Shown here one piece after another: positions 891 to 24,005 of a stretch of DNA of 64,000 nt. Under the pieces are notes generated by a model. It had not been told where the DNA came from, searched no databases, and worked only from the letters and a program-made list of their open reading frames with translations. The DNA lies in the NCBI RefSeq assembly GCF_000419605.1, contig NZ_ATTI01000001.1, positions 190,001 through 254,000 of the forward strand, read 5' to 3'. Origin of the DNA: Sphingomonas phyllosphaerae 5.2 (GTDB lineage Bacteria; Pseudomonadota; Alphaproteobacteria; Sphingomonadales; Sphingomonadaceae). The translations under genes were made by a program, and so were the position numbers. Position 1 is the first letter of the stretch. Every line of letters starts with the position of its first letter.

Positions 891-1008
891 GCACACACCC
901 CCAACATCAACGTTGGATGTGGGTGACTTCCAGACAAATCATAATGTGCATCGATTTTGAACCTCCCTGGCCTCAACAACCAGGGAAAACCCCCGTATGC
1001 TGGCCCCA

Positions 1009-12930: not shown

Positions 12931-13806
12931 TCACGATAGATGCTCGGTGAGCGCGTCAAGAAACAGGCGCACCTTTCGCGGGATGAGCCGCCGTGTCGGC
13001 AGCACCGCCCATATGCCCTGATCCGGTACGATGCCGTCGCTCAGGCTGATCTCCTGTAGCCTCCCGGAGACGAGGTCTTCGCGCACGTTCCATTCCGACA
13101 GTTGCACGATGCCGAGCCCGAGGATGCTCGCTTCGTGCAGTGCCTCCATGCTGTCCGCGGAGAAGCGCCCGGTGATCGCCTGTCGAATGGTTTTTCCCGA
13201 TCGTTCCAGCGTCCAGTGCCGGGCGGCGGGAACGGCAAGGCATTCATGATCGCGCAACCCGGACACCGTGGTGGGGGTGCCCCGCCGCGCGAGATAGGCG
13301 GGTGCGGCGTATAGGCCGCGCGCGTTGTCGGCCAGTCGGCGCGCGACCAGGGTGCTGTCGCGCAATTCCCCGAAGCGGATCGCGACGTCGACACCCTGCG
13401 CAGCGATATCCACCACCGCATCGCTGAGCAGCAGCTCGACCTTGACCCGCGGGTGGGCGGCGAGGAAGCGCACGAGCATCGGCGTCACGACCTTGCGGCC
13501 GAACGGAACCGAGGCCGCAACCCGCAGCAGCCCGCCTGCGCCTTCGTCGTCGCCGGCAACGGCGGCGCGCGCGTCCTCGGCATGGGCGAGGATCGCCTCT
13601 GCATGGGGCAGGAACGCCTCGCCTTCCGGCGTCAGCGAAAGTGATCGCGTCGTTCGATGCACCAGCCGGGCACCCACTTCGGCTTCGAGCGCCGCGAGCC
13701 GGCGCGACGCGACCAATGGCGTCAACCCCAACCGACGCCCGGCCGCCGACAGGCTCCCCTGCTGCACGGCTTCGATCAGGACGGCGATGTCGGCCAGCTC
13801 CAGCAT
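12931..13806 (-). CDS. LysR-family transcriptional regulator
   Basis: A 291-aa LysR protein. The winged helix-turn-helix lies in residues 1-60 (AVQQGSLSAAGRRLGLTPLV, then RRLAALEAEVGARLVHRTTR). The effector domain has the usual DVAIRFGEL and SILGLGIVQLSEW motifs. It is divergent from an MFS transporter and a flavin monooxygenase, the classic arrangement for regulating an adjacent catabolic or resistance pair. The ATG at 13806 lies in an inverted repeat TATC-N7-GATA, so autoregulation is likely. A much longer in-frame extension runs antisense through the neighbouring genes and is discarded. Confidence 0.92.
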   Translation of the reverse strand: MLELADIAVLIEAVQQGSLSAAGRRLGLTPLVASRRLAALEAEVGARLVHRTTRSLSLTPEGEAFLPHAEAILAHAEDARAAVAGDDEGAGGLLRVAASVPFGRKVVTPMLVRFLAAHPRVKVELLLSDAVVDIAAQGVDVAIRFGELRDSTLVARRLADNARGLYAAPAYLARRGTPTTVSGLRDHECLAVPAARHWTLERSGKTIRQAITGRFSADSMEALHEASILGLGIVQLSEWNVREDLVSGRLQEISLSDGIVPDQGIWAVLPTRRLIPRKVRLFLDALTEHLS

Positions 13807-13820
13807 ATCTTCGTATGATA
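13805..13820 (+). promoter_or_regulatory. Inverted repeat and regulon-like motif between LysR and MFS genes
   Basis: TATCTTCGTATGATA reads as TATC-N7-GATA and covers the LysR start codon. It could be a LysR site, but it also matches the ATATCTTCGTATG variant of the motif found upstream of five other genes here. In that reading it sits 89 nt upstream of the MFS start in the shared orientation. Confidence 0.4.
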
Positions 13821-13905
13821 AGCCGGCTGATCGAATGGCGCTACTTATGCTTCGCGGCGACAGGGTCCAGATGGGGGCAGATCGCTGCATACCCAGGAGG
13901 TCCGT

Positions 13906-15096
13906 ATGACACCCACCGCACACGCCGCCGAGACGGGACCGAGGCCACGGCTCCGTTCCGGGCTGAACTTCTCGATGGCGGTCGCCGCCGGGGTCGCCGT
14001 CGCCAACATCTATTATAATCAGCCGATGCTGGGGATCATGGAGCAGGACCTGCCCGGCACCGCCACCAGCTTCGTGCCGACCGCGACGCAGCTCGGCTAT
14101 GCGGCGGGGCTCTTCCTGCTGGTGCCGCTGGGCGATCTGGTCGAGCGCAAGCGCCTGATCGTCCTGCAGTTCGGGGGACTTGCGCTCGCGCTGACCATTG
14201 CGGCGATGGCGCCCGGCGCAGCGCTGGTGATCCTTGCCTCGCTGCTCGTGGGTATCCTCGCGACCGTCGCGCAGCAGATCGTGCCGCTCGCGGCGCATCT
14301 GGCGACGCCGGAGCGGCGCGGGGCGACGGTCGGCACGGTGATGGCCGGGCTGCTGTGCGGCATCCTGCTCAGCCGGACACTCGCCGGCTTCGTCGCCACG
14401 CATGCCGGGTGGCGCGAGATGTTCTGGCTTGGCGTGCCGCTGGCGGTCGGCGCCGGTGCAGTGATGGCGGCGGTGCTGCCGCGCAGCGCACCGGACACGA
14501 CGCACAGCTACGGCTCGCTGCTCCGGTCGCTCGGCGGTCTCTGGTCCGGGTTCGCCGCCTTGCGCACCGCGGCGATCACGCAGGCGTTGCTGTTCGCCGG
14601 CTTCAGCGCGTTCTGGACGATCCTCGCATTGCACCTGCAGGAACCACGCTTCTCGCTCGGTGCAGACGTCGCCGGGCTGTTCGGCATCGTCGGTGCCGTC
14701 GGCGTCCTCGCCGCGCCAGTGGCAGGCCGGATCGCCGACAGGCGCGGGCCGCAACTCGTCATCCTGCTCGGTGCGGCGCTGACGCTGTTCGCCTGGCTGG
14801 TATTCGGTGTCCTCGGGTCGATCGCGGGCCTCGTCGTCGGCGTCATCCTGCTCGACTTCGGCGTGCAGAGCGCGCTCGTCTCCAACCAGCATGTCGTCTA
14901 CGCGCTGCGCCCCGAGGCGCGGGCGCGGCTGAACACCATCTTCATGGGCGCGATGTTCCTGGGTGGTGCGGCGGGCTCCGCCGGCGCGACCTTCGCGTGG
15001 AACGCCGCCGGCTGGAGCGCGGTCGTCATGCTCGGCATCGTCCTGTCCGCAGCCGGCGTGCTGATCCAGCTCGTCCATTCGAAGCGGGAGCGCTGA
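13906..15096 (+). CDS. MFS transporter (efflux type)
   Basis: A 396-aa, 12-helix major facilitator. After a charged N-terminus the first helix holds [10 protein letters not shown], typical of drug or arabinose-efflux-like exporters, and the A-motif-like loop reads [12 protein letters not shown]. The start has a good ribosome site (CAGGAGGTCCGTATG). It is 3 nt from the downstream flavin monooxygenase, so the two are co-transcribed. Export of a toxic substrate or intermediate is plausible; the substrate is unknown. Confidence 0.88.
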
Positions 15097-15099
15097 GCC

Positions 15100-16200
15100 A
15101 TGCGGGTTGTGATCGCCGGCGGATCGATGGCCGGACTGTTCGCCGCGGCGCTGCTGCGTAAGGCGGGGCATGACGTCCACGTCTACGAACGGTCGCACGC
15201 CGGTCTCGAAGGACGCGGCGCGGGGCTGGTCGCCCAGCAGGAGGTGTTCGACCTTCTGCACGAGATCGGACGGGACGAGGTTGCGCAGCTGGGCGTGGTC
15301 GCGAAGGAACGGATCACGCTCGCCTCGGATGGGACGATCGCAGCGGCCGGGGGACCGCCGCAGATGCAGATATCCTGGGATCACCTCTATGTGGCGACCC
15401 GGATGCAGATCCCGGACGAGGCCTATCATCTCGGGCGCGGCGCGATCGGCGCAGGGCAGGACGCCGCCGGCGCGTGGCTGGAGCTCGACCATGGCGAACG
15501 TATCCGTGCCGATCTCGTCATCGGTGCGGACGGCATCGGTTCGGCGGTCCGTCGATCGATGATGCCCGACGCCCCCGGCCCGCGCTATACCGGCTATGTG
15601 GCGTGGCGGGCGCTCGTACCGGAACGGTTGTTGCCGGTGTCGGCGGCGGATGTGCTGTCGGACCGCTTCGCCTTCTTCCACCTGCCCGGCGGTCAGGCGC
15701 TCGGCTATACCGTCACCGGCGCGAACGGAGAGCTGACACCGGGGCAGCGGCGCTACAATGCCGTCTGGTATCGCACCACGCCCGATCTCGCGGCGACGCT
15801 GACTGATCGGGACGGCCGCGTTCACCCCTATTCGCTGCCGCCCGGTGCCGTGCGCGCCGATGCCGTGCAGGAGGTGATCGCATCGGCACGTGCAGTGCTG
15901 CCGCGGCCATTCGCGACCGTGTTCGCGGCGGAGTCGCAGCCGTTCGTGCAGGCGATCTTCGACATGGAGATCGCGCGGATGGTCGAGGGGCGGCTCGCGC
16001 TGATCGGCGATGCGGCCTTCGTGGCGCGTCCACATACCGCGATGGGCGTCGCCAAGGCAGCCGGTGACGCGATGGCGCTCGCCCGGGCCGTGGATCTGGG
16101 ATGGACGCCCGAGGCGCGACGCGCGTTCGAAGCCGTACGGTTGCGGACGGGTCACGCCATCGTGGACTATGGCCGACGCCTGGGCGCCTCGCTCGGCTAG
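15100..16200 (+). CDS. FAD-dependent monooxygenase (aromatic hydroxylase type)
   Basis: A 366-aa class A flavoprotein hydroxylase. The N-terminal Rossmann motif is VIAGGSMAGLFAAALLRKAG, the middle FAD/NADPH motif is DLVIGADGIGSAVR, and the C-terminal FAD motif is RLALIGDAAFVARPH. Layout and length resemble 2,6-dihydroxypyridine hydroxylase and salicylate-type enzymes, which add oxygen to an aromatic ring using NAD(P)H. It probably acts with the adjacent MFS carrier under LysR control. The substrate is not determined. Confidence 0.88.
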   Translation: MRVVIAGGSMAGLFAAALLRKAGHDVHVYERSHAGLEGRGAGLVAQQEVFDLLHEIGRDEVAQLGVVAKERITLASDGTIAAAGGPPQMQISWDHLYVATRMQIPDEAYHLGRGAIGAGQDAAGAWLELDHGERIRADLVIGADGIGSAVRRSMMPDAPGPRYTGYVAWRALVPERLLPVSAADVLSDRFAFFHLPGGQALGYTVTGANGELTPGQRRYNAVWYRTTPDLAATLTDRDGRVHPYSLPPGAVRADAVQEVIASARAVLPRPFATVFAAESQPFVQAIFDMEIARMVEGRLALIGDAAFVARPHTAMGVAKAAGDAMALARAVDLGWTPEARRAFEAVRLRTGHAIVDYGRRLGASLG

Positions 16201-16207
16201 GCCCGCT

Positions 16208-16236
16208 CGGCACGTTCCCGCCGCGGGAACGTGCCG
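16208..16236. terminator. Bidirectional terminator hairpin
   Basis: CGGCACGTTCCCG and CGGGAACGTGCCG form a perfect 13-bp stem with a 3-nt loop, exactly between the convergent monooxygenase and nitrobindin-like genes. No long T-run is present, but position and strength argue for termination in both directions. Confidence 0.75.
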
Positions 16237-16247
16237 GGCCATATCGA

Positions 16248-16901
16248 TCAGTCTGCCCGGCGCCTGGCGAGGATCGCAGCCCACGGATTGGGGCGCGCAT
16301 CGCCGATGCGGTGCAGCGTGTTGCGGTCCTGATGCGCGAACGGCGCGTCGCGCCCCTCGACCATCAGCTCGGTATCGGTGACGTAGCTCCACGTGCCGTC
16401 GGGGTTGAAGGTGATAGCGATGCGATAGCTCTCGGTCCGGAAAGATTGCTCCAGGAACTGCGTCGAGCAGATGCCGTAGCCGGTTTCGCCGCGCGTCGCC
16501 GTCACCACGATCTCGTCCGCATCCGGCGCGACCCGCCCGGACGCGAGCGCGACCTGTCCGCGGGGGATCGCCAGCGTCTGCATGACGAGTCCGGTGGCGG
16601 GTTCCCACAGCCAGTAGCCGACCTGTTCGTGAAAGGTGATGTCTTCCTCCTCGGTCGTGATGTGGAGGTGGTAGCGCAGGCCGTAAAAGAGCTGTGGCCC
16701 ATTCGCCTGCGGGTCGATCGCCTGGAAATCGATGTTCTCGATAAAGACGCGGCGCTCCGGCCCGTCCGGCTTCGGCGCGAGATCGACGCCCTTGCGTGCG
16801 CGCCAGCGACCGGCAAGGCGGCGAAGCGGACCCAGGTTCGCCAGCGTGTCGGGGTCGACGTCGGTCGGTTCGGTAAAGATGTCGTGCGGCTTCGGGGTCA
16901 T
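16248..16901 (-). CDS. Nitrobindin-like/FABP-like beta-barrel protein
   Basis: A 217-aa protein with LGPLRRLAGRWRARKGVD, a long beta-rich middle (YHLHITTEEEDITFHEQVGY, then LWEPATGLVMQTLAIPRGQ) and TWSYVTDTELMVEG near the end. This matches the heme-binding beta-barrel group formerly DUF1794, whose studied members bind heme and react with nitric oxide or peroxynitrite. The ATG at 16901 has a GGAG site; a longer in-frame extension lacks one. A regulon-like motif lies 89 nt upstream. Heme binding is inference, since the axial His cannot be assigned with confidence. Confidence 0.7.
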   Translation of the reverse strand: MTPKPHDIFTEPTDVDPDTLANLGPLRRLAGRWRARKGVDLAPKPDGPERRVFIENIDFQAIDPQANGPQLFYGLRYHLHITTEEEDITFHEQVGYWLWEPATGLVMQTLAIPRGQVALASGRVAPDADEIVVTATRGETGYGICSTQFLEQSFRTESYRIAITFNPDGTWSYVTDTELMVEGRDAPFAHQDRNTLHRIGDARPNPWAAILARRRAD

Positions 16902-16989
16902 GGCGGATCTCCGGCTGGGAGGTGAAGCAGGCGACGCCGGTATCGACGGCGTACGAAGGACCGTACGCCCGCGCCCCGGAACAGGCAGC

Positions 16990-17004
16990 CATACGTAGGT
17001 TTCG
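16990..17004 (-). promoter_or_regulatory. FixJ-like binding site A
   Basis: CATACGTAGGTTTCG on the plus strand reads CGAAACCTACGTATG toward the nitrobindin-like gene, 89 nt before its start. The core ATACGTAG matches 7 of 8 positions of the FixJ consensus GTAMGTAG. The FixJ-type regulator at 17642-18307 is the natural candidate binder. Confidence 0.5.
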
Positions 17005-17206
17005 AGCCGCAACGATGAGCGTCGCGCCGGGTCGGCCGGGGCAGCGCCGCGTTTCGTGGAACGCCAAGCCGTCGGCAGCGGGCGCGCTCACCTTTTCGCG
17101 GAGTGAGGGCCGGGCACGGAATGCCGTTACTTCCCGGGCTACGTGCTTCCAGCGCGAAGGCCGGCGAGGGCGCGGCACATCTGAGAGGGAGCGCCGCCGC
17201 CCGCGC

Positions 17207-17572
17207 TCAGCCGATGGCGTCCTCGATCGCCTCGAGCAACGTGTCGGGATCGATCGGCTTGGTCAGGAAGGCACGTGCACCGTTCGCCAGCATCTGGTCG
17301 CGGGTGGCGGACGTGGGGAAGGCGGTCATCGCGATGAGCGGATGCGAGCACCCGCGACGCTTCAGCTCGAGTTGCAATGCGCGGCCGTCGACGCCCTCCA
17401 TATGGACATCGGTGACGATGCAGGCGAACGTCTCCAACTGCCGGCTGTCGAGCAGCGCGCCGCCATCCGCAAATGCGATGCCGGTCAGCCCTGCGGAGCC
17501 GAGCAGGCTGACGATGCTGCCGCGGACGCCCGGATCGTCATCGACGATGGCCACAAGCTGGGAATGGGGCAA
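17207..17572 (-). CDS. Stand-alone response-regulator receiver (CheY-like)
   Basis: A 121-aa single receiver domain: acidic pocket DDD at 11-13, phospho-acceptor Asp55 in IVTDVHMEG, Thr83 and Lys105 in LTKP. There is no output domain, so it must act by protein contact or as a phosphate sink. The start is a TTG behind GGAGTATGCC. It follows the FixJ-type regulator and its PAS kinase on the same strand, so it probably exchanges phosphate with that kinase. A regulon-like motif lies 71 nt upstream. Confidence 0.85.
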   Translation of the reverse strand: MPHSQLVAIVDDDPGVRGSIVSLLGSAGLTGIAFADGGALLDSRQLETFACIVTDVHMEGVDGRALQLELKRRGCSHPLIAMTAFPTSATRDQMLANGARAFLTKPIDPDTLLEAIEDAIG

Positions 17573-17591
17573 GGCATACTCCGGACCCGGG

Positions 17592-17659
17592 CCGAACGCG
17601 CCCGTCGCACCCTCATTGGGCGGTTCGGCGTCACCTTGCCATCATACGGAGATATTAAA
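17592..17659 (-). promoter_or_regulatory. Hairpin and motif D between the FixJ-type and receiver genes
   Basis: CCGAAC-CGCCC and GGGCG-GTTCGG (17592-17628) form a hairpin with one bulged base, perhaps attenuating read-through. CATACGGAGATATT at 17643-17656 overlaps the last codons of the regulator gene and reads toward the receiver gene 71 nt away. It shares CCGTATGATGG with the other motif copies. Confidence 0.4.
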
Positions 17660-18307
17660 GCGGTGGATGGTCGCGTCGCGGACGCCGAGCTGCTCGGCCA
17701 TGCGCACCAGATCGGCCAGCGACTGCGCTTCCATCTTGCGCATCATGTTGCCGCGATGGATCTTGACCGTGATCTCGCTCAGCGAAAGCTTGGCGGCGAC
17801 CTGCTTGTTCATCAGGCCGGTCACCACCAACGCCATGACGTCCCGTTCCCGCGGGGTCAGCCGCTCGTAGCAGGCTTTCAGGTCGGCGATCCCGGCAGCC
17901 TCGGCCAGCCGCGCGCGGTCGGCATCCAGCGCGGTCGCCACCGCCGCCAGCAGCTGTTCGTCCTCGAACGGCTTGGGCAACACGTCGATCGCACCGGCGC
18001 GCATGCCGCGCACCGTCATCGGTATGTCGCCGTGGCCGGTGATCAGCACGACGGGAAGGTGGATGCCATGGTCCGCCAGCCGCTCCTGAACGTCGAGGCC
18101 GTTTTCGCCAGCCAAGCGGATGTCCAGGATCAGGCAGGCGGGAACCGTCGGTGGCGCGACCGACAGGAATGTCCCCGGACCATCGAAAAGCCGGACATCG
18201 TACCCGATCGAGCGCAGCAGGCTGCCGATCGAGCTGCGGACTTCCGGGTCGTCGTCGATGACGCAGATACAGTCCGGTGCCATCTCGCCCGGCGTCGCAT
18301 CCGTCAT
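17642..18307 (-). CDS. FixJ-family response regulator (REC-LuxR HTH)
   Basis: A 221-aa regulator with an N-terminal receiver (DDD at 18-20, phospho-Asp62 in [12 protein letters not shown], Lys in VLPKPF) and a C-terminal LuxR-type helix-turn-helix ([20 protein letters not shown], then [13 protein letters not shown]). This is the FixJ/NarL-like layout of a phosphorylation-activated DNA-binding protein. Its ATG overlaps the kinase stop as ATGA, making a tight kinase-regulator pair. The GTAMGTAG-like sites nearby are probable targets. Confidence 0.95.
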
Positions 18308-19827
18308 GCCGCCACCCTTTCGCGCTCGTCGACGATTGGCAACCGGAAGCTGAACGTCGCGCCGCCATTCGCATTGCCGGCCGCGGTCAGCGTGCCGCCA
18401 TGCTGTTCGATGATCGAGCGGCAGATCGACAGGCCCATGCCCATCCCCTCCTGCTTGGTGGTGAAGAAGGGGCGGAACAGGTTCTCGGGATCGGCGTCCG
18501 CGATCCCGCTCCCGCAGTCGCTGACGTCGACGGCGACATAGGCCCCATCGCGGGCGCCATCGATGCACAGCGTGCGGCGATCGGCGGGGGTGCCGGCCAT
18601 GGCCTGTTGCGCGTTGATCAACAGGTTCATCAGCACCTGTTGCAGTTGCACGCGGTCGCCGCTCACCGCCGGAAGATCCTCCGCGATGGTCATCCGCAGC
18701 GTCACTCCGTTCGCGCCCAGTTCGCGGTCGAGGATCGCGGCGGTATCGGTGACCAGCGATCCGATCGCGACCGCGTCGTGCTCGGGATCGGCTTTGCGCG
18801 CGAGGTCGCGGATGCGGGCGATCACGTCCGCCGCTCGCCGCCCGTTCGACGCGATATGATCCAGGCAGTCGGCGACTTCCGCCGCCTCCGGTGCCGCGCG
18901 TGCCAGCCACCGCCGTCCCGAGCTCGCATAGGTGATGATCGCCGACAGCGGCTGGTTCACCTCGTGCGCGATCGACGCGGCAAGCTGTCCGAGCGTCGTC
19001 ACGCGCGCCATGTGCGTCAACTCCGCCTGTGACTCCGCGAGCCGTGCCTGCGCGCGGTTGCGTTGCGTCACGTCCAGCGCGGTGATCAGCACATGTTGCC
19101 ATCCGTGATGGTCGGGCGGCAGCGTCACCCGCAGGACGACGTCGATCACCGTTCCCGAGGTAGTGCGGAATTGCGCCTCTTCCTCGACCGGCATCTCGCC
19201 GCGCAGCAACCGTTCGAAGATGCGGACCTGCGCCGTCTGTGCTGCGGCGGTGTGGTGCGCGATGATGTTGCCGCCGATCAGCGCGGATCGATCCGCATAG
19301 CCGAACAGGCGCGCCACTTCCTGGTTCGCGTCGCGGATATGGGTCCGCCCGGCGGCGCGCTGCACCAGGTCGAGGTTCAGCGCCTCGCCGGCGTGGAGCA
19401 TCGCGTAGGCTGCCGACCAGTCGGATTCCCAGATCGGAAAGCCGGCCGCGTTGAAGATCATGCCATAGCGTTGATCGGCGCGCTGCCGGTCCGCCGCCAC
19501 GGTGATCTGGCGCGCGCACAGCAGCGCGGTGGTCGCGATCGCGATCAGGCTGACGGCCAGTCGCATCGTCGGCGAACCGATGCCGTCGGCGCCGTGGCTG
19601 ATCCAATAGCCGACGATAGCCAACGCGGCGCAAACCGAGCCGGCCACATGCACGGCCGATCGCCGTTGTTCGCGTGCCACGACGAGGACGACGATCGTGT
19701 AGAGCACGGCGACCGCGCCTTGCAGCGGGCTGAGCACGTCGAGCGCAAAGATGCCGAGGGCAAGCAGCGCGGCCATCCCGATCCGGCCGGCGGCGATCCA
19801 CCGCCGCACCTCGCTGTCACCTTCCAT
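18304..19827 (-). CDS. PAS-containing sensor histidine kinase (FixL-like)
   Basis: A 507-aa membrane sensor kinase: N-terminal hydrophobic helices (about residues 15-110), a PAS-like domain (about 125-260, with [17 protein letters not shown]), a HisKA box [13 protein letters not shown] with phospho-His288, then HATPase N-box LLINAQQAM and G-boxes DCGSGI and GMGMGLSI. The kinase core resembles FixL/DctB. No heme-ligand motif could be assigned in the PAS domain, so oxygen sensing is not claimed. The ATG at 19827 is preferred over an in-frame extension of 24 residues. It is translationally coupled to the FixJ-type regulator. Confidence 0.93.
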
Positions 19828-19923
19828 TGCCGCCTCCCGCAGCGATCGAAAGGATCGCCACCCCGAAACGAAGCTGGCCGATCGCGCAACGAACTGCAAC
19901 TCTACTCTATTTTCTCACGTCGG

Positions 19924-20562
19924 TCAGATGAGTACGTCCATCACGAACCGCGTTCCCGGGCATGCGGCCTCCCACCTCACGGTCGCGCCGAGCTTCGCGG
20001 CCGTGGCATGGATCAGCCGGCTGCCAAGCCCTGTGCCGCTGCTCGGGGTCTCGGACGCATGCCCGCGGTCCTCGACCATGAACCGGTATCTGCCATCCGC
20101 ACGCCGCCGCAGGGACATCACGATCGCGCCCGGCTCGCCAGCGCGGTACGCGTGCTTGCAGGCGTTCGTCACCAGCTCGGTCGCGAGCATGCCGATCGCG
20201 GTCGCGACGGCGCCGGTGGCGGGAACCGCCGCGGCATCGACGATCACCGACCGGCCCGGTCCGCAGCTGCGCGACAGTCGCTCGCCCAGTTCCTCGAGAT
20301 ACGCGCCCAGATCGATCGCGCCCCCGTCGCTGGCATAAAGATGGCGGTGGACAGCGCCGATCGCGACGATGCGTTCGCGCGTCCGCTCCAGCGCCGCCAG
20401 CGTCTCTTACGAGGCACCCCGCGCCTCGACCGCGATCAGCGCCGTGATCAGCTGGAGCTGATTGGCGATACGATGGTTCGCTTCATCCGCGCCGCTTGGT
20501 GGCGCCGCCCCCGGTGTTGCGAAGTTCGGCGTAGGCGACAAACCTGCGATCATCATGCACAT
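19924..20562 (-). pseudogene. HisKA_2-type histidine kinase with an in-frame stop
   Basis: One continuous frame on the minus strand encodes a short soluble kinase: H-box EANHRIANQLQLI, then ERIVAIGAVHRHLYA, N-box LATELVTNACKHAY and G-box GTGLGSRLI, ending FVMDVLI. This is the HisKA_2/HWE-like layout of about 210 aa. The frame is cut by TAA at 20407-20409, just after EARGAS and before ETLAALERT. No ribosome site or start is visible soon after the stop. Either the gene is dead, or the base is a sequencing error, or the stop is read through. Start taken as ATG at 20562. Confidence 0.8.
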
Positions 20563-20617
20563 CCCAGCCAGATTCAGCGGTGTTCGATGGTGTCATCTGG
20601 CGGACCGCGGCTGATGT

Positions 20618-20678
20618 GCGCCATCATACGCAGGTTTACGTGGCAGCGAGGCCGATCGAAACCTGCGTATGATGGCGC
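20618..20678. repeat. Perfect 20-bp inverted repeat in a divergent promoter
   Basis: GCGCCATCATACGCAGGTTT (20618-20637) and its exact reverse complement (20659-20678) are separated by 21 bp. The region lies between the divergent HisKA_2 kinase and the cNMP-flavoprotein genes. Each arm contains AAACCTGCGTATGATGG reading toward the nearer gene, 63 and 76 nt from the starts. It looks like paired activator sites serving both promoters, and could also fold as a hairpin. Confidence 0.8.
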
Positions 20679-20746
20679 CATCGCGATAGACGCGAGATGG
20701 TCCCCCTCGAGAGACGCGGCGACAGCCGGCATGAAGGGCGAAGAGC

Positions 20747-22387
20747 ATGATCGACACGCGTGAGCACCAGCGCTTTCCTGTTCTGACCCCGGCGCAGATC
20801 GATACCGCGCGCCGTTTCGCCAGCGGACCCGAGCGACGATTCGGCCCGGGCGAGACGATCTTTGCGATCGGGGAGCATGGCGCGCCGGCGTGGCTGGTGA
20901 TCGGCGGCGCGATCGAGGTCGTGCGCCGCGACGGACTGAGCCGCGAGGCGGCGATCACCACCCATCATCCCGGCCAATTCTCCGGTGAGGTGAATCAGCT
21001 GGCGGGGCGTCCGTCGATCGCGGCCGGTCGGGCCGGGCCGGAGGGCTGTACCGCTTTGCCGCTGGACCCCGCGCACCTGCGCGCGCTGATGGTCGGATCG
21101 GCGGATGTCGGGGAAATCGTCATGCGGGCGCTGATCCTGCGCCGCGTCGGCCTGATCGAAGAGGGCGGCGCCGGCACGATCCTGATCGGCACGCCCGGCA
21201 GCCCCGACATGGTGCGGCTGCAGGACTTCCTTGGCCGCAGCGGTTTGCCCAACCTCGTGCTCGACGTCCGGTCCGACGAAGAAGGTCGGGCGCTGGTCGA
21301 GCGTACCGGCGTGCTGCCCGAAGAGCTGCCGCTGGTGGTGTGTCCGACGGGATCGGTGCTGAAGCGGCCCGGCGTCGAAGAACTCGCTGCGTGCCTCGGC
21401 GTCGTTCCCGACATCGATCCGGATCGTCTGTTCGACGTCGCGATCGTCGGCGCCGGCCCGGCCGGCCTGGCGACCGCCGTCTATGCGGCATCCGAGGGAT
21501 TGTCGGTCATCGTTCTGGATTCGAGGGCGATGGGTGGACAGGCCGGGGCCTCGGCGCGGATCGAGAATTACCTCGGCTTTCCGACCGGGATCTCCGGTCA
21601 GGCGCTCGCCGGTCGCGCGTTCAATCAGGCGCTGAAGTTCGGGGCAGAGGTCGCGATCCCGGTCTCCGTGGAACGACTCGTCTGCGATGCGCCGGAACTG
21701 AGCCTGTTCTGCGCCGACGAGCGCCGCGTGAAGGCACGCGCGGTCGTGATCGCCTCCGGCGCGCGATATCGCCGCCCTGACGTGCCGAACCTCGCCACGT
21801 TCGAGGGTGCGGGCATCTCCTACTGGGTCTCGGCGATCGAGGCACGGTTGTGTGCCGGCGAGGAGGTGGTGCTGGTCGGCGGCGGCAATTCCGCCGGACA
21901 GGCCGTCGTCTTCCTCGCGCCGCAGGTCCGCAAGCTGCACCTCGTCGTGCGTCGCGAGCTCGCGGCCACCATGTCGCGCTACCTCATCGATCGCATCGCC
22001 GCGCTACCGAACGTGGAGATGCACATCGGCAGCGAGGTGGCGGGTCTGGAGGGCGATCGGGAGACGGGTCTGGCGGCTGCGACATTCCGCGACCGCCGCA
22101 GCGGCGCACTCACGCGCCGCGAGGTGCGGCACATGTTCCTGTTCATCGGCGCCGACCCGAACGCCGATTGGGCACAGGAATGCGTAGCGACGGATGGCAA
22201 GGGCTTCATCGTCACCGGCGATGGCGGCCTGCCACTCGAAACGAGCCGCCGCGGCGTGTTCGCGATCGGTGACGTGCGTGCCGGCTCCACGAAGCGCGTC
22301 GCCGCGGCCGTCGGCGAAGGCGCCGCGGTCGTCGCCCAGATCCACAGCATGTTCGCCGCACAATCAGCCAAGGAGACCCAGCGATGA
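20747..22387 (+). CDS. Cyclic-nucleotide-binding/thioredoxin-reductase-like flavoprotein fusion
   Basis: A 546-aa three-part protein. Residues about 1-130 form a cNMP-binding Crp-like sensor (RRFGPGETIFAIGEHGAPAW). About 140-220 look like a glutaredoxin/thioredoxin-fold segment (LPLVVCPTGSVLKRPGVEEL). About 225-540 form a pyridine nucleotide-disulfide reductase core with DVAIVGAGPAGLATAVYAA (FAD), VVLVGGGNSAGQAVVFLA (NADPH) and GVFAIGDVRAGSTKRV. The CxxC found in true thioredoxin reductases is absent: the region reads GISYWVSAIEARLC. The stop overlaps the zinc-finger gene (ATGA). Probably a redox enzyme gated by a small ligand; the partner is unknown. Confidence 0.87.
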   Translation: MIDTREHQRFPVLTPAQIDTARRFASGPERRFGPGETIFAIGEHGAPAWLVIGGAIEVVRRDGLSREAAITTHHPGQFSGEVNQLAGRPSIAAGRAGPEGCTALPLDPAHLRALMVGSADVGEIVMRALILRRVGLIEEGGAGTILIGTPGSPDMVRLQDFLGRSGLPNLVLDVRSDEEGRALVERTGVLPEELPLVVCPTGSVLKRPGVEELAACLGVVPDIDPDRLFDVAIVGAGPAGLATAVYAASEGLSVIVLDSRAMGGQAGASARIENYLGFPTGISGQALAGRAFNQALKFGAEVAIPVSVERLVCDAPELSLFCADERRVKARAVVIASGARYRRPDVPNLATFEGAGISYWVSAIEARLCAGEEVVLVGGGNSAGQAVVFLAPQVRKLHLVVRRELAATMSRYLIDRIAALPNVEMHIGSEVAGLEGDRETGLAAATFRDRRSGALTRREVRHMFLFIGADPNADWAQECVATDGKGFIVTGDGGLPLETSRRGVFAIGDVRAGSTKRVAAAVGEGAAVVAQIHSMFAAQSAKETQR

Positions 22388-22683
22388 CCTGCACGCATAC
22401 GGCCACGATCCATGAGGTGACACCAAGTGCGAAGGGCTGCGAGGAATGCCTGAAGATCGGCAGCGAATGGGTGCATCTGCGGTTGTGCCGCGAATGCGGC
22501 CATGTCGGCTGCTGCGACCAGTCGCCGCATCGTCACGCACGCGCGCATTTCAACGCGACCCGCCATCCGATCATCGAGGGGTATGACCCGCCCGAAGGCT
22601 GGGGCTGGTGCTACATCGACGATATCGAGGTGGAACTGCCGGACCAGACGCCGCAGATCGGGCCGATCCCGCGCTTCTACTAG
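22384..22683 (+). CDS. UBP-type zinc-finger protein
   Basis: A 99-aa protein that is essentially one ZnF-UBP domain. Likely metal ligands are Cys3, His5, Cys19, Cys22, Cys35, Cys38, Cys43 and histidines 49-61, with the family motif CRECGHVGCCDQSPHRHA followed by HFNATRHPI. In eukaryotes this fold binds the ubiquitin C-terminus. Bacteria lack ubiquitin, so its role is unknown. It is translationally coupled to the cNMP-flavoprotein gene, which suggests an electron-transfer or regulatory partner. Confidence 0.88.
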   Translation: MTCTHTATIHEVTPSAKGCEECLKIGSEWVHLRLCRECGHVGCCDQSPHRHARAHFNATRHPIIEGYDPPEGWGWCYIDDIEVELPDQTPQIGPIPRFY

Positions 22684-22721
22684 CGCCAACCGAGATTCAG
22701 CCGACTTTTCCGTACGCGCCG

Positions 22722-22903
22722 TCATTGCGAGCGTAGCGAAGCAATCCAGGGCGTCGCGCGGACCGCTGGGTTGCTTCGAGACGCTTGCGACGGCGCGTGG
22801 AGGGAGCGAGTCTGGCCGATCGTGGGAGCGCGGTTCGCCCGGGTTGCTCATCTTCATTGGTGGGCAGTCCGGCACCCGCGAAGCGCTGAATGTCGGTCCC
22901 GCC
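22722..22903 (+). repeat. Composite dispersed repeat, copy 1
   Basis: Three blocks occur in order: a palindromic GCGAGCGTAGCGAAGCAA (from about 22728), CGTGGGAGCGCGGTTCGCCC (22821-22840), and GGCACCCGCGAAGCGCTGAA with following bases to 22903. The same three blocks occur inverted at 36324-36466. The last block translates as GTREALNVxPA in both copies. It fills most of the 393-bp gap after the zinc-finger gene. No gene is claimed here. Confidence 0.75.
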
Positions 22904-23028
22904 TGAAGCTTCGGCGATGGCGGTCCGGCACGCTCGATACGCTCGGGCCGAACCCGCCGTTGTCACCGGGCACGATCAGGATGCCGCGTGAAGGGCAGCG
23001 CGGTGATGCGTAGTGGCGGCACAGCGAA

Positions 23029-23057
23029 ACGAGGGGCGGCTCGCGTCCGCCCCTCGT
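23029..23057 (-). terminator. Rho-independent terminator of the alpha/beta hydrolase gene
   Basis: ACGAGGGGCGG and CCGCCCCTCGT pair perfectly over 11 bp with a 7-nt loop. On the minus strand the stem is followed by TTTCG, about 20 nt after the hydrolase stop. Confidence 0.8.
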
Positions 23058-23076
23058 CCCGGCGTTTGGCGGACGA

Positions 23077-23913
23077 TCAGCTGCGCACGAACGCCAGCAG
23101 GTCCGGGTTGATCACGTCGGCGTGGGTGGTCAGCATGCCGTGGGGGAAGCCTTCGTAAATCTTCAGCGTCGCATGTTGCAGGAGCTTCGCCTGAAGCAGC
23201 GCGGCATCCTTATAGGGGACGATCTGGTCGTCATCGCCCTGCAGGACCAGCGTCGGCACGGTGATTGCCTTCAGATCCCCGGTCTGGTCGGTCTCCGAGA
23301 ATGCCTTGATGCCGTCGTAATGGGCATTGGCACCGCCCATCATGCCCTGTCGCCACCAATTGCGAACCACCCCCTCTGAGACAGTCGCGTCCTCGCGATT
23401 GAAGCCGTAGAACGGACCTGCCGCGACATCGAGGAAGAACTGCGCCCGGTTGGCGGCCAGCGCCTGGCGAAAGCCGTCGAAGACCGTGATCGGCGTACCC
23501 TCCGGATTTGCCTCCGTCTGCACCATCAACGGCGGCACGGCGCTGACCAGCACCGCCTTCGCGACCCGGCCTTGTGGCTGACCGTGCTTCGCCACGTACC
23601 GCGCCACTTCGCCGCCGCCGGTGGAGTGGCCGATGTGGACCGCGTTCCGGAGATCGAGGTGCTCCGCGACCGCCGCTGCGTCGGCAGCATAATGATCCAT
23701 GTCGTGGCCGGTGCCGACCTGCGCCGAGCGACCATGACCGCGGCGATCGTGCGCGACGACGCGATAGCCGTTCGCAAGGAAGAACAGCATCTGCGCGTCC
23801 CAGTCGTCGGACGACAGCGGCCAGCCGTGATGGAAGACGATCGGTTGCGCGTCTCTGGGCCCCCAGTCCTTGTAGAAGATCTCGACGCCGTCTGCGGTGG
23901 TTACGTAAGCCAT
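23077..23913 (-). CDS. Alpha/beta hydrolase (non-heme chloroperoxidase/arylesterase type)
   Basis: A 278-aa alpha/beta-hydrolase. Catalytic residues are visible: Ser97 in [10 protein letters not shown], Asp228 or 229 in [10 protein letters not shown], and His258 in EGFPHGM. The N-terminal [13 protein letters not shown] and HDRRGHGRS are typical of the cofactor-free chloroperoxidase/arylesterase group, which hydrolyses esters and makes peracids from peroxide. The ATG at 23913 follows GGAGGACAGC, so I use it rather than one four codons upstream. No signal peptide. A motif copy lies 78 nt upstream, linking it to the nearby two-component system. Confidence 0.9.
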
Positions 23914-23990
23914 GCTGTCCTCCATCCCGGTGGGCGTGCGATCGCCCTTCCGACACGGCTCATGTCGTACATCCCGCTGCCCGCCGCTAT

Positions 23991-24005
23991 CATACTGACG
24001 TTTCG
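23991..24005 (-). promoter_or_regulatory. Regulon-like motif C upstream of the alpha/beta hydrolase
   Basis: CATACTGACGTTTCG reads CGAAACGTCAGTATG toward the hydrolase gene, 78 nt before its start. It keeps the CGAAAC and GTATGAT parts of the motif but diverges in the middle. Confidence 0.4.

Follow-up and report, generated by a model that had tools for sequence, protein, structure and literature searches.

What controls the genes grouped around a two-component system in Sphingomonas phyllosphaerae 5.2, and do six similar short DNA sequences that lie among these genes take part in that control? The window analysed here is a stretch of 64,000 nucleotides (nt), C1:190001-254000, within the 3.92-Mb genome of two contigs. 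A degenerate, imperfect dyad with the layout 6-N4-6, TCAWAC-N4-GTATGA (hereafter the box), occurs in it six times in a single cluster. We consider it very probable that the six boxes are operators of the cluster's own StyR-like response regulator, by which the phosphorylated regulator would activate its own operon, a FixT-like stand-alone receiver gene and a few redox or detoxification genes.

A sequence-only reading of the window had listed six copies of a motif, and each of them was found at its place and facing the gene named for it. That reading had put the copies 63-89 nt before the start codon; with the box coordinates set as 21-mers with GTATG in register, the box end was measured at 62-82 nt before it (for the receiver from a TTG at 17572). 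The core ATACGTAG, which that reading placed one base from the FixJ consensus GTAMGTAG, is found verbatim in the 16990 copy only (1/6). The boxes, with the earlier copy names in brackets, are as follows.

13803..13823, + strand: box before the pair of genes for a major facilitator superfamily (MFS) transporter and a flavin adenine dinucleotide (FAD) monooxygenase; overlaps the divergent LysR start codon (ATG at 13806, - strand) (13805 copy)
16984..17004, - strand: box before the THAP4/nitrobindin-like gene; weakest score of the six (16990 copy)
17637..17657, - strand: box before the stand-alone receiver gene; overlaps the regulator stop codon (TGA, 17642-17644) (17643 copy)
20619..20639, - strand: box before the HisKA_2 kinase frame and then the kinase-regulator genes (20625 copy)
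20657..20677, + strand: box before the genes for the cNMP-flavoprotein (cNMP, cyclic nucleoside monophosphate) and the zf-UBP protein; divergent twin of the box at 20619 (20659 copy)
23985..24005, - strand: box before the alpha/beta hydrolase gene (23991 copy)

A scan of the window for the consensus MYATCNNCGTATGATR, at most 3 mismatches being allowed, found 17 matches where 13.1 were expected, which is not significant. Such a mismatch scan is too loose to decide the matter; in its place we used matrices, checked by leave-one-out runs and against simulated windows. When each copy was held out from the matrix in turn, it ranked 1st among the 127,955 window positions in 4 of the 6 runs and 2nd in the other 2, the leading competitor in every run being the spacer before the 5S rRNA at 985. 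At the score of the weakest copy, a matrix built from the same six sites finds exactly these six in the window and 0 in 20 first-order Markov windows. These results confirmed that the six sites are real and not due to chance. The box-like sequence in the 23S-5S rRNA spacer occupies 985-1005 (+), and identical 17-mers at C1:659611 and C1:1524543 probably mark other rRNA operons. Three copies of AAACCCCCGTATGCTGG were set aside, the one in the window being the spacer directly before the 5S rRNA.

For the genome-wide scan we used model R1, which describes the box and its downstream region from sequence only (50 sites, 46 columns) and was run on 34 genomes. At E<=1 it gave six matches in the window's genome, five of which lie within the cluster: the 17643, 20625, 20659 and 23991 copies at E values of 2.7e-4 to 1.0e-3 and the 13805 copy at 0.29. 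The 16990 copy was not recovered in this genome at that threshold, and at the sixth, off-locus match (3697845, E 0.86) the 21-bp matrix finds nothing that reaches 15 bits. By R1, therefore, no comparable match lies elsewhere in the genome, and the motif is not as frequent there as in these promoters.

The regulator's close relatives carry the label Sphingomonas. In a sample of 201 genomes of the genus, a match to the regulator at E<=1e-55 was present in 35, and the 17 whose regulator match is at least 64% are referred to as genomes with the system. In the 17 control genomes the best regulator relatives, all first-look candidates being scored, reach at most 45% identity; 6 of these genomes hold no regulator relative at E<=1e-30, and 11 hold more distant relatives. 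At E<=0.1, R1 found matches in all 17 genomes with the system and in 0 of the 17 without it; the training sites of R1 had come from G023 and from 16 of these 17 genomes with the system. Two targets that lie apart from the rest of their cluster also have a box, at sites outside the training set. In G189, which gave no training site, the best R1 match precedes a receiver relative (53%) on another contig, and in G226 a boxed HisKA_2 kinase gene, whose site was not used in training, lies about 9 kb from the kinase-regulator pair. The off-locus R1 matches G008:C2:1476606, G124:C52 and G043:C214 have no 21-bp matrix match of 15 bits and were discarded. Off-locus box-like sites in G141 (two) and G122 score 17.5-25 bits; those away from the cluster at L250, 3828 (+) and L252, 3809 (+) (G141, G122) may be further targets.

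Conservation before orthologous genes was counted with a matrix made from the window's six sites alone, at a threshold of 15 bits and within 250 nt upstream. The window's own rows were excluded, duplicate control rows were removed, and the control locus L039 was dropped (it comes from G018, which holds a 54% regulator relative). In the relatives' loci with the system the box lies 38-88 nt before the gene. It was found before the HisKA_2 kinase gene in 12 of 12 such loci, the receiver gene in 14 of 15, the hydrolase gene in 9 of 10 (0 of 15 control loci without the system) and the flavoprotein gene in 3 of 3 (0 of 9 control loci). The THAP4 gene has a box in 1 of 1, at 80 nt, G008 being the sole locus where the gene was found. 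The FAD monooxygenase gene, which follows the MFS gene, has a box of its own in 0 of 2. Reversed upstream controls with the same matrix and threshold gave 0 boxes for every gene. The THAP4 site of G008 and the receiver sites of G226 and G006 all pass 15 bits, and the 21-mer of the MFS box is identical at the same place in G008 and G122 and present as a variant in G210. The flavoprotein of G008, a genome with the system and the boxes, is 93% identical to that of the window, whereas G032, with a flavoprotein 90% identical, has neither. The box is thus kept upstream of orthologues. At L135 (G122) the kinase match and the hydrolase match are both divided between two frames, and the HisKA_2 kinase gave no match; the cassette there may be decaying, or these may be assembly errors.

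The box is found beyond the genus as well. We analysed 80 loci around regulator relatives from named genomes, the best 80 of 592. In these loci a 61-site matrix, likewise trained on genomes with the system, gave 131 box matches, compared with 4 in reversed sequence. With the window-only matrix, a box of at least 15 bits lies within -30 to +230 of the regulator stop codon in 46 of the 80 loci and in 1 of 80 in the reversed-sequence control (as read from the tabulated matches); at 10 bits, 54 loci are boxed versus 11 in reversed sequence. In 29 of these 46 loci the first base of the box lies 7 nt upstream of the stop codon, which places the stop codon inside the dyad spacer. In the window the regulator frame is two codons longer, and its stop codon falls within the right half of the box, whose DNA is nevertheless kept. 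Genera boxed at this junction include Novosphingobium, Pseudooceanicola, Bosea, Ancylobacter, Bradyrhizobium, Methylobacterium, Devosia, Chelatococcus and Lysobacter, and in Burkholderia, Cupriavidus and Paraburkholderia the box precedes a receiver gene oriented towards the regulator gene. Recurrence of the box before the receiver gene thus covers Rhizobiales as well as Pseudooceanicola, Burkholderia and Lysobacter. Among the boxed loci, identity of the regulator protein goes down to 50-60%. In L162, 12011-12492, from a Novosphingobium metagenome-assembled genome, the receiver gene is about 1.5 kb from the regulator gene, and the box accompanies the receiver gene.

The most unusual feature would be this predicted operator over a stop codon, which appears to feed the receiver gene and to have been kept over a long evolutionary distance. 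It is quite possible, if short of probable, that the locus represents a widespread old cassette that has no description as such. In it a StyR-like kinase-regulator pair would have its operator over the regulator's stop codon, so that one set of bases would both close the regulator gene and drive an adjoining FixT-like receiver gene. The pair would also control a small movable set of genes that takes its box along (flavoprotein/zf-UBP, hydrolase, MFS/monooxygenase), and the class would extend from sphingomonads to Bradyrhizobium, Burkholderia and Lysobacter.

The anatomy of the box was determined on 77 sites outside the genus, which remained from 87 after removal of 10 near-duplicates; L153, L154, L156 and L158 were excluded, being the same records as, or of the same species as, genus genomes. 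In these sites A2, A4, G10, T11 and A12 are invariant, C5, T13, A15 and T16 are nearly invariant, and C1 and G14 occur in 55 and 66 of the 77, respectively. About the dyad centre at 7.5, 61% of the pairs are complementary, compared with 39% for the best of eight other centres. In the Bradyrhizobium loci L178, L188, L199 and L229 (at about 7.7-8.1 kb) a perfect dyad, TCATACCTAGGTATGA, lies upstream of the kinase gene. Downstream of the box, an A at +40, a column outside the 21-bp matrix that picked the sites, occurs in 43 of the 50 genus sites of at least 22 bits and in 46 of the 77 sites outside the genus (background 0.19, P=4e-15), where it is the strongest of 200 column-base tests; the runner-up there is T at +44 (27/77, P=2.5e-5). 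In the genus set T is commonest at +43 (27/50), and the two sets share the A at +40 only. Five of the six window copies have this A, and the 20625 copy has an A one base later. Read as part of a -10 element, the A at +40 would put the dyad centre at about -43 from the predicted start, an activator position. GTATGAT as a simple -35 element was rejected by its spacing and by the dyad.

The genes of the cluster are listed below.

17642..18307, - strand: response regulator with a receiver domain (REC) and a LuxR-type helix-turn-helix (HTH), StyR/FixJ subfamily (Pfam Response_reg and GerE); proposed binder of the box
18304..19827, - strand: histidine kinase (HisKA, HATPase_c; PAS match weak)
17207..17572, - strand: stand-alone receiver (Pfam Response_reg); probable TTG start at 17572
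19924..20556, - strand: HisKA_2-type kinase frame, broken by a TAA at 20409-20407
20747..22387, + strand: cNMP-binding and thioredoxin-reductase-like flavoprotein; no CxxC at the usual redox position
22384..22683, + strand: small zf-UBP protein; overlaps the flavoprotein stop
23077..23913, - strand: alpha/beta hydrolase
13906..15096, + strand: MFS transporter
15100..16200, + strand: FAD monooxygenase-like protein, 3 nt downstream of the MFS gene
16248..16901, - strand: THAP4-type heme-binding beta-barrel (nitrobindin-like) protein
12931..13806, - strand: LysR regulator, divergent from the MFS gene; unlikely as a general binder of the box

The histidine kinase has a PAS match of 20.3 bits, below the cut-off of 22.6, and an N-terminus that looks membrane-spanning when judged by eye. 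Its stop codon overlaps the regulator ATG, the two genes sharing four bases. The HisKA_2 kinase had been named as a target: its box is in place, but its frame is broken by the in-frame TAA, which corresponds to residue 50. The orthologue in G008 is open over its full length, and the HisKA_2 domain was matched in this intact relative and in the window part beyond the stop, which confirms the family. Since its frame is open in G008 but interrupted in the window's genome, this kinase can probably be dispensed with here.

In the mechanism that we propose, the histidine kinase would phosphorylate the regulator on a signal, and a dimer of the phosphorylated regulator would bind the box at about -43 and recruit RNA polymerase (class II activation). 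The 20625 copy would be able to drive the whole set, since the kinase-regulator genes follow the HisKA_2 frame after a gap of 96 nt, and self-activation would result. The stand-alone receiver gene would be controlled through the 17643 copy, and its product, by analogy with FixT, probably damps the kinase. The outputs would be the flavoprotein/zf-UBP pair, the hydrolase, the MFS/monooxygenase pair and perhaps the THAP4 protein. The idea of a compact self-regulating regulon draws support from conservation, co-occurrence with the regulator and promoter geometry. The words "redox or stress" attached to it earlier remain a guess from gene names.

The nearest solved structure to the regulator is 1yio (181.6 bits), which we take to be StyR, and the next is FixJ, 5xso (152.1 bits). 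Against the curated NCBIfam FixJ family the regulator scores 195.4 bits, where the cut-off is 255; the partner kinase scores 219.4 bits against curated FixL, with a cut-off of 850, and matches over residues 245-500 only. The link to the FixJ consensus GTAMGTAG made in the sequence-only reading is weak: the core stands verbatim in a single copy of the six, the curated cut-off is missed, the layout of the box is that of TodT/StyR and the StyR structure is nearer than that of FixJ. The FixJ label should be replaced by that of a predicted StyR/FixJ-subfamily regulator with a variant tod-type box. Candidate binders were compared among the window's own two DNA-binding proteins only. The regulator defines all 17 loci by selection; LysR was rejected, as it stands beside the system in just 4 of the 17 loci, the window included (orthologues of 70% or more in 3 of the 16 relatives' loci with the system; a 35% LysR in G102 was excluded).

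The published systems were compared on the accessible parts of their descriptions. StyR and TodT share with the regulator here the REC and LuxR-HTH architecture, and their box, ATAAACN4GTTTAT (PMC5874301), shares with ours the 6-N4-6 layout and the bases A.AC-N4-GT.T. The activating site of StyR lies at about -40 (PMC2442086), and the box here is predicted at about -43. The half-sites differ, however, being TCAWAC/GTATGA here and ATAAAC/GTTTAT in StyR/TodT, so that the box is not that of the StyR/TodT group. Among the recognition residues Lys175, Val176 and His179 of that group (PMC5874301), the helix TVKIHRGN of our regulator keeps Lys175 and has Ile for Val176 and Gly for His179, and thus does not carry the group's full set. 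That the inner half-site bases are shared and the outer ones differ would fit these residues. TodS-like kinases have a receiver domain (PMC5874301) and the kinase here has none, and the target genes differ from those of StySR/TodST.

The FixLJ-FixT systems of Sinorhizobium and Caulobacter likewise combine a kinase-regulator pair with a receiver-only protein under apparent control of the regulator; FixT is a receiver induced by FixLJ which blocks autophosphorylation of FixL (PMC7078487). The receiver here has 2 cysteines, compared with the 4-Cys motif of Caulobacter FixT, and neither the regulator nor the kinase reaches its curated cut-off (FixJ and FixL, respectively). The FixJ sites described in print have the sequences GTAMGTAG, GTAGTTTCCC and TAAGTAATTTCCCTTA (PMC4999443). 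To sites of the GTAMGTAG/TAAGTAATTTCCCTTA type the window offers the near-match ATACGTAG in 1 of its 6 copies, and true FixJ sites were set aside on sequence. The box is closer to the TodT/StyR box than to these sites. FxkR is a FixJ-analogous regulator with an equal 6-N4-6 spacing, but its box, printed as a GTTACA-N4-GTTACA repeat and also called palindromic in the same paper (PMC4999443), is unrelated in sequence. The general stress response of Sphingomonas (Pak kinases, single-domain regulators, EcfG), in the parts of its description consulted, also uses kinases and single-domain receivers; its output is PhyR/EcfG, whereas the output here would be a LuxR-HTH regulator with its own box. For AcfR, a FixJ-family regulator of Azorhizobium, the accessible text of PMC7945327 gives no binding site.

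Several observations weigh against activation by the local regulator through one conserved box. A box of 15 bits near the regulator stop was found in only 46 of the 80 named loci. Within the genus, the zf-UBP gene is boxed in just 4 of 8 relatives' loci with the system (0 of 5 without) and the MFS gene in 3 of 6 (0 of 1 without), and no box at 15 bits was found before the G210 hydrolase or the G201 receiver gene. Related genomes do not count as independent cases, and common descent of the locus accounts for much of the conservation. The putative -10 sequence beyond the A at +40 differs between the two sets of sites. At the position of StyR His179, 75 of the 80 relatives have Gly and the other 5 have Ser; the outer bases of the half-sites differ as well, so that the specificity does not appear to be simply that of StyR. 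Finally, the direction of regulation is inferred from the position of the box alone.

Repression through the box is a reading that we regard as unlikely. Many regulators do repress their own genes. StyR, when it occupies an additional site, contributes to repression (PMC2442086); in the same source its activating site STY2 lies at about -40, and the single sites here, at about -43 and at a fixed distance from a -10-like base, suit an activator. A little less likely still is that the boxes bind another regulator, such as a FixJ-type paralogue encoded elsewhere, the local system being merely a target. Loose first-look candidates for FixJ-type relatives number 37-105 per genome in the 35 genomes with a match, and in G023, which has a boxed HisKA_2-kinase/receiver pair, the regulator finds no counterpart at E<=1e-55, although a match of 44% identity was seen. 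Yet the distant regulator relatives in 11 of the 17 control genomes are accompanied by no box at E<=0.1, and across genera the box sits at the regulator's own 3' end.

The fixed spacing between the box and the conserved A at +40 would also be expected of a promoter element of an alternative sigma factor. We consider this very improbable, for the box is a dyad, its occurrence follows the two-component system (sigma genes were outside this comparison), and the 24 bp that separate it from the A exceed the spacing of ordinary -35/-10 pairs. As to chance similarity, or copied DNA without a regulatory role, the loose consensus scan near expectation speaks for it, and the pair at 20619 and 20657 may come from one inverted duplication. 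The leave-one-out and Markov controls, the genome scan, the boxes in other genera and the orthologue counts all oppose it, as does the persistence of the box where the regulator protein is only 50-60% identical; its probability is negligible. Activation by the cluster's own regulator is thus the reading that we retain.

Among the papers listed in searches of the open-access literature, none describes this box or regulon in its title or the start of its abstract; subscription journals were mostly outside the search, so that novelty is not thereby proved. If activation by the local regulator is true, a DNA code would be assigned to a large clade of FixJ-family regulators that has no described box in the literature searched, and the regulons of this clade could be read from sequence across Proteobacteria. 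It would also give a compact, testable model of built-in feedback: a stand-alone receiver driven from an operator that shares bases with a stop codon. Should the effector genes turn out to have a function in common, the regulon would be a first handle on the cNMP-flavoprotein/zf-UBP pair. The flavoprotein itself has WVSA in place of the expected CxxC, the position being judged against Escherichia coli TrxB, and scores 201 bits against 343 for the curated thioredoxin reductase family. For these two reasons the cNMP-fused flavoprotein is probably not a thioredoxin reductase.

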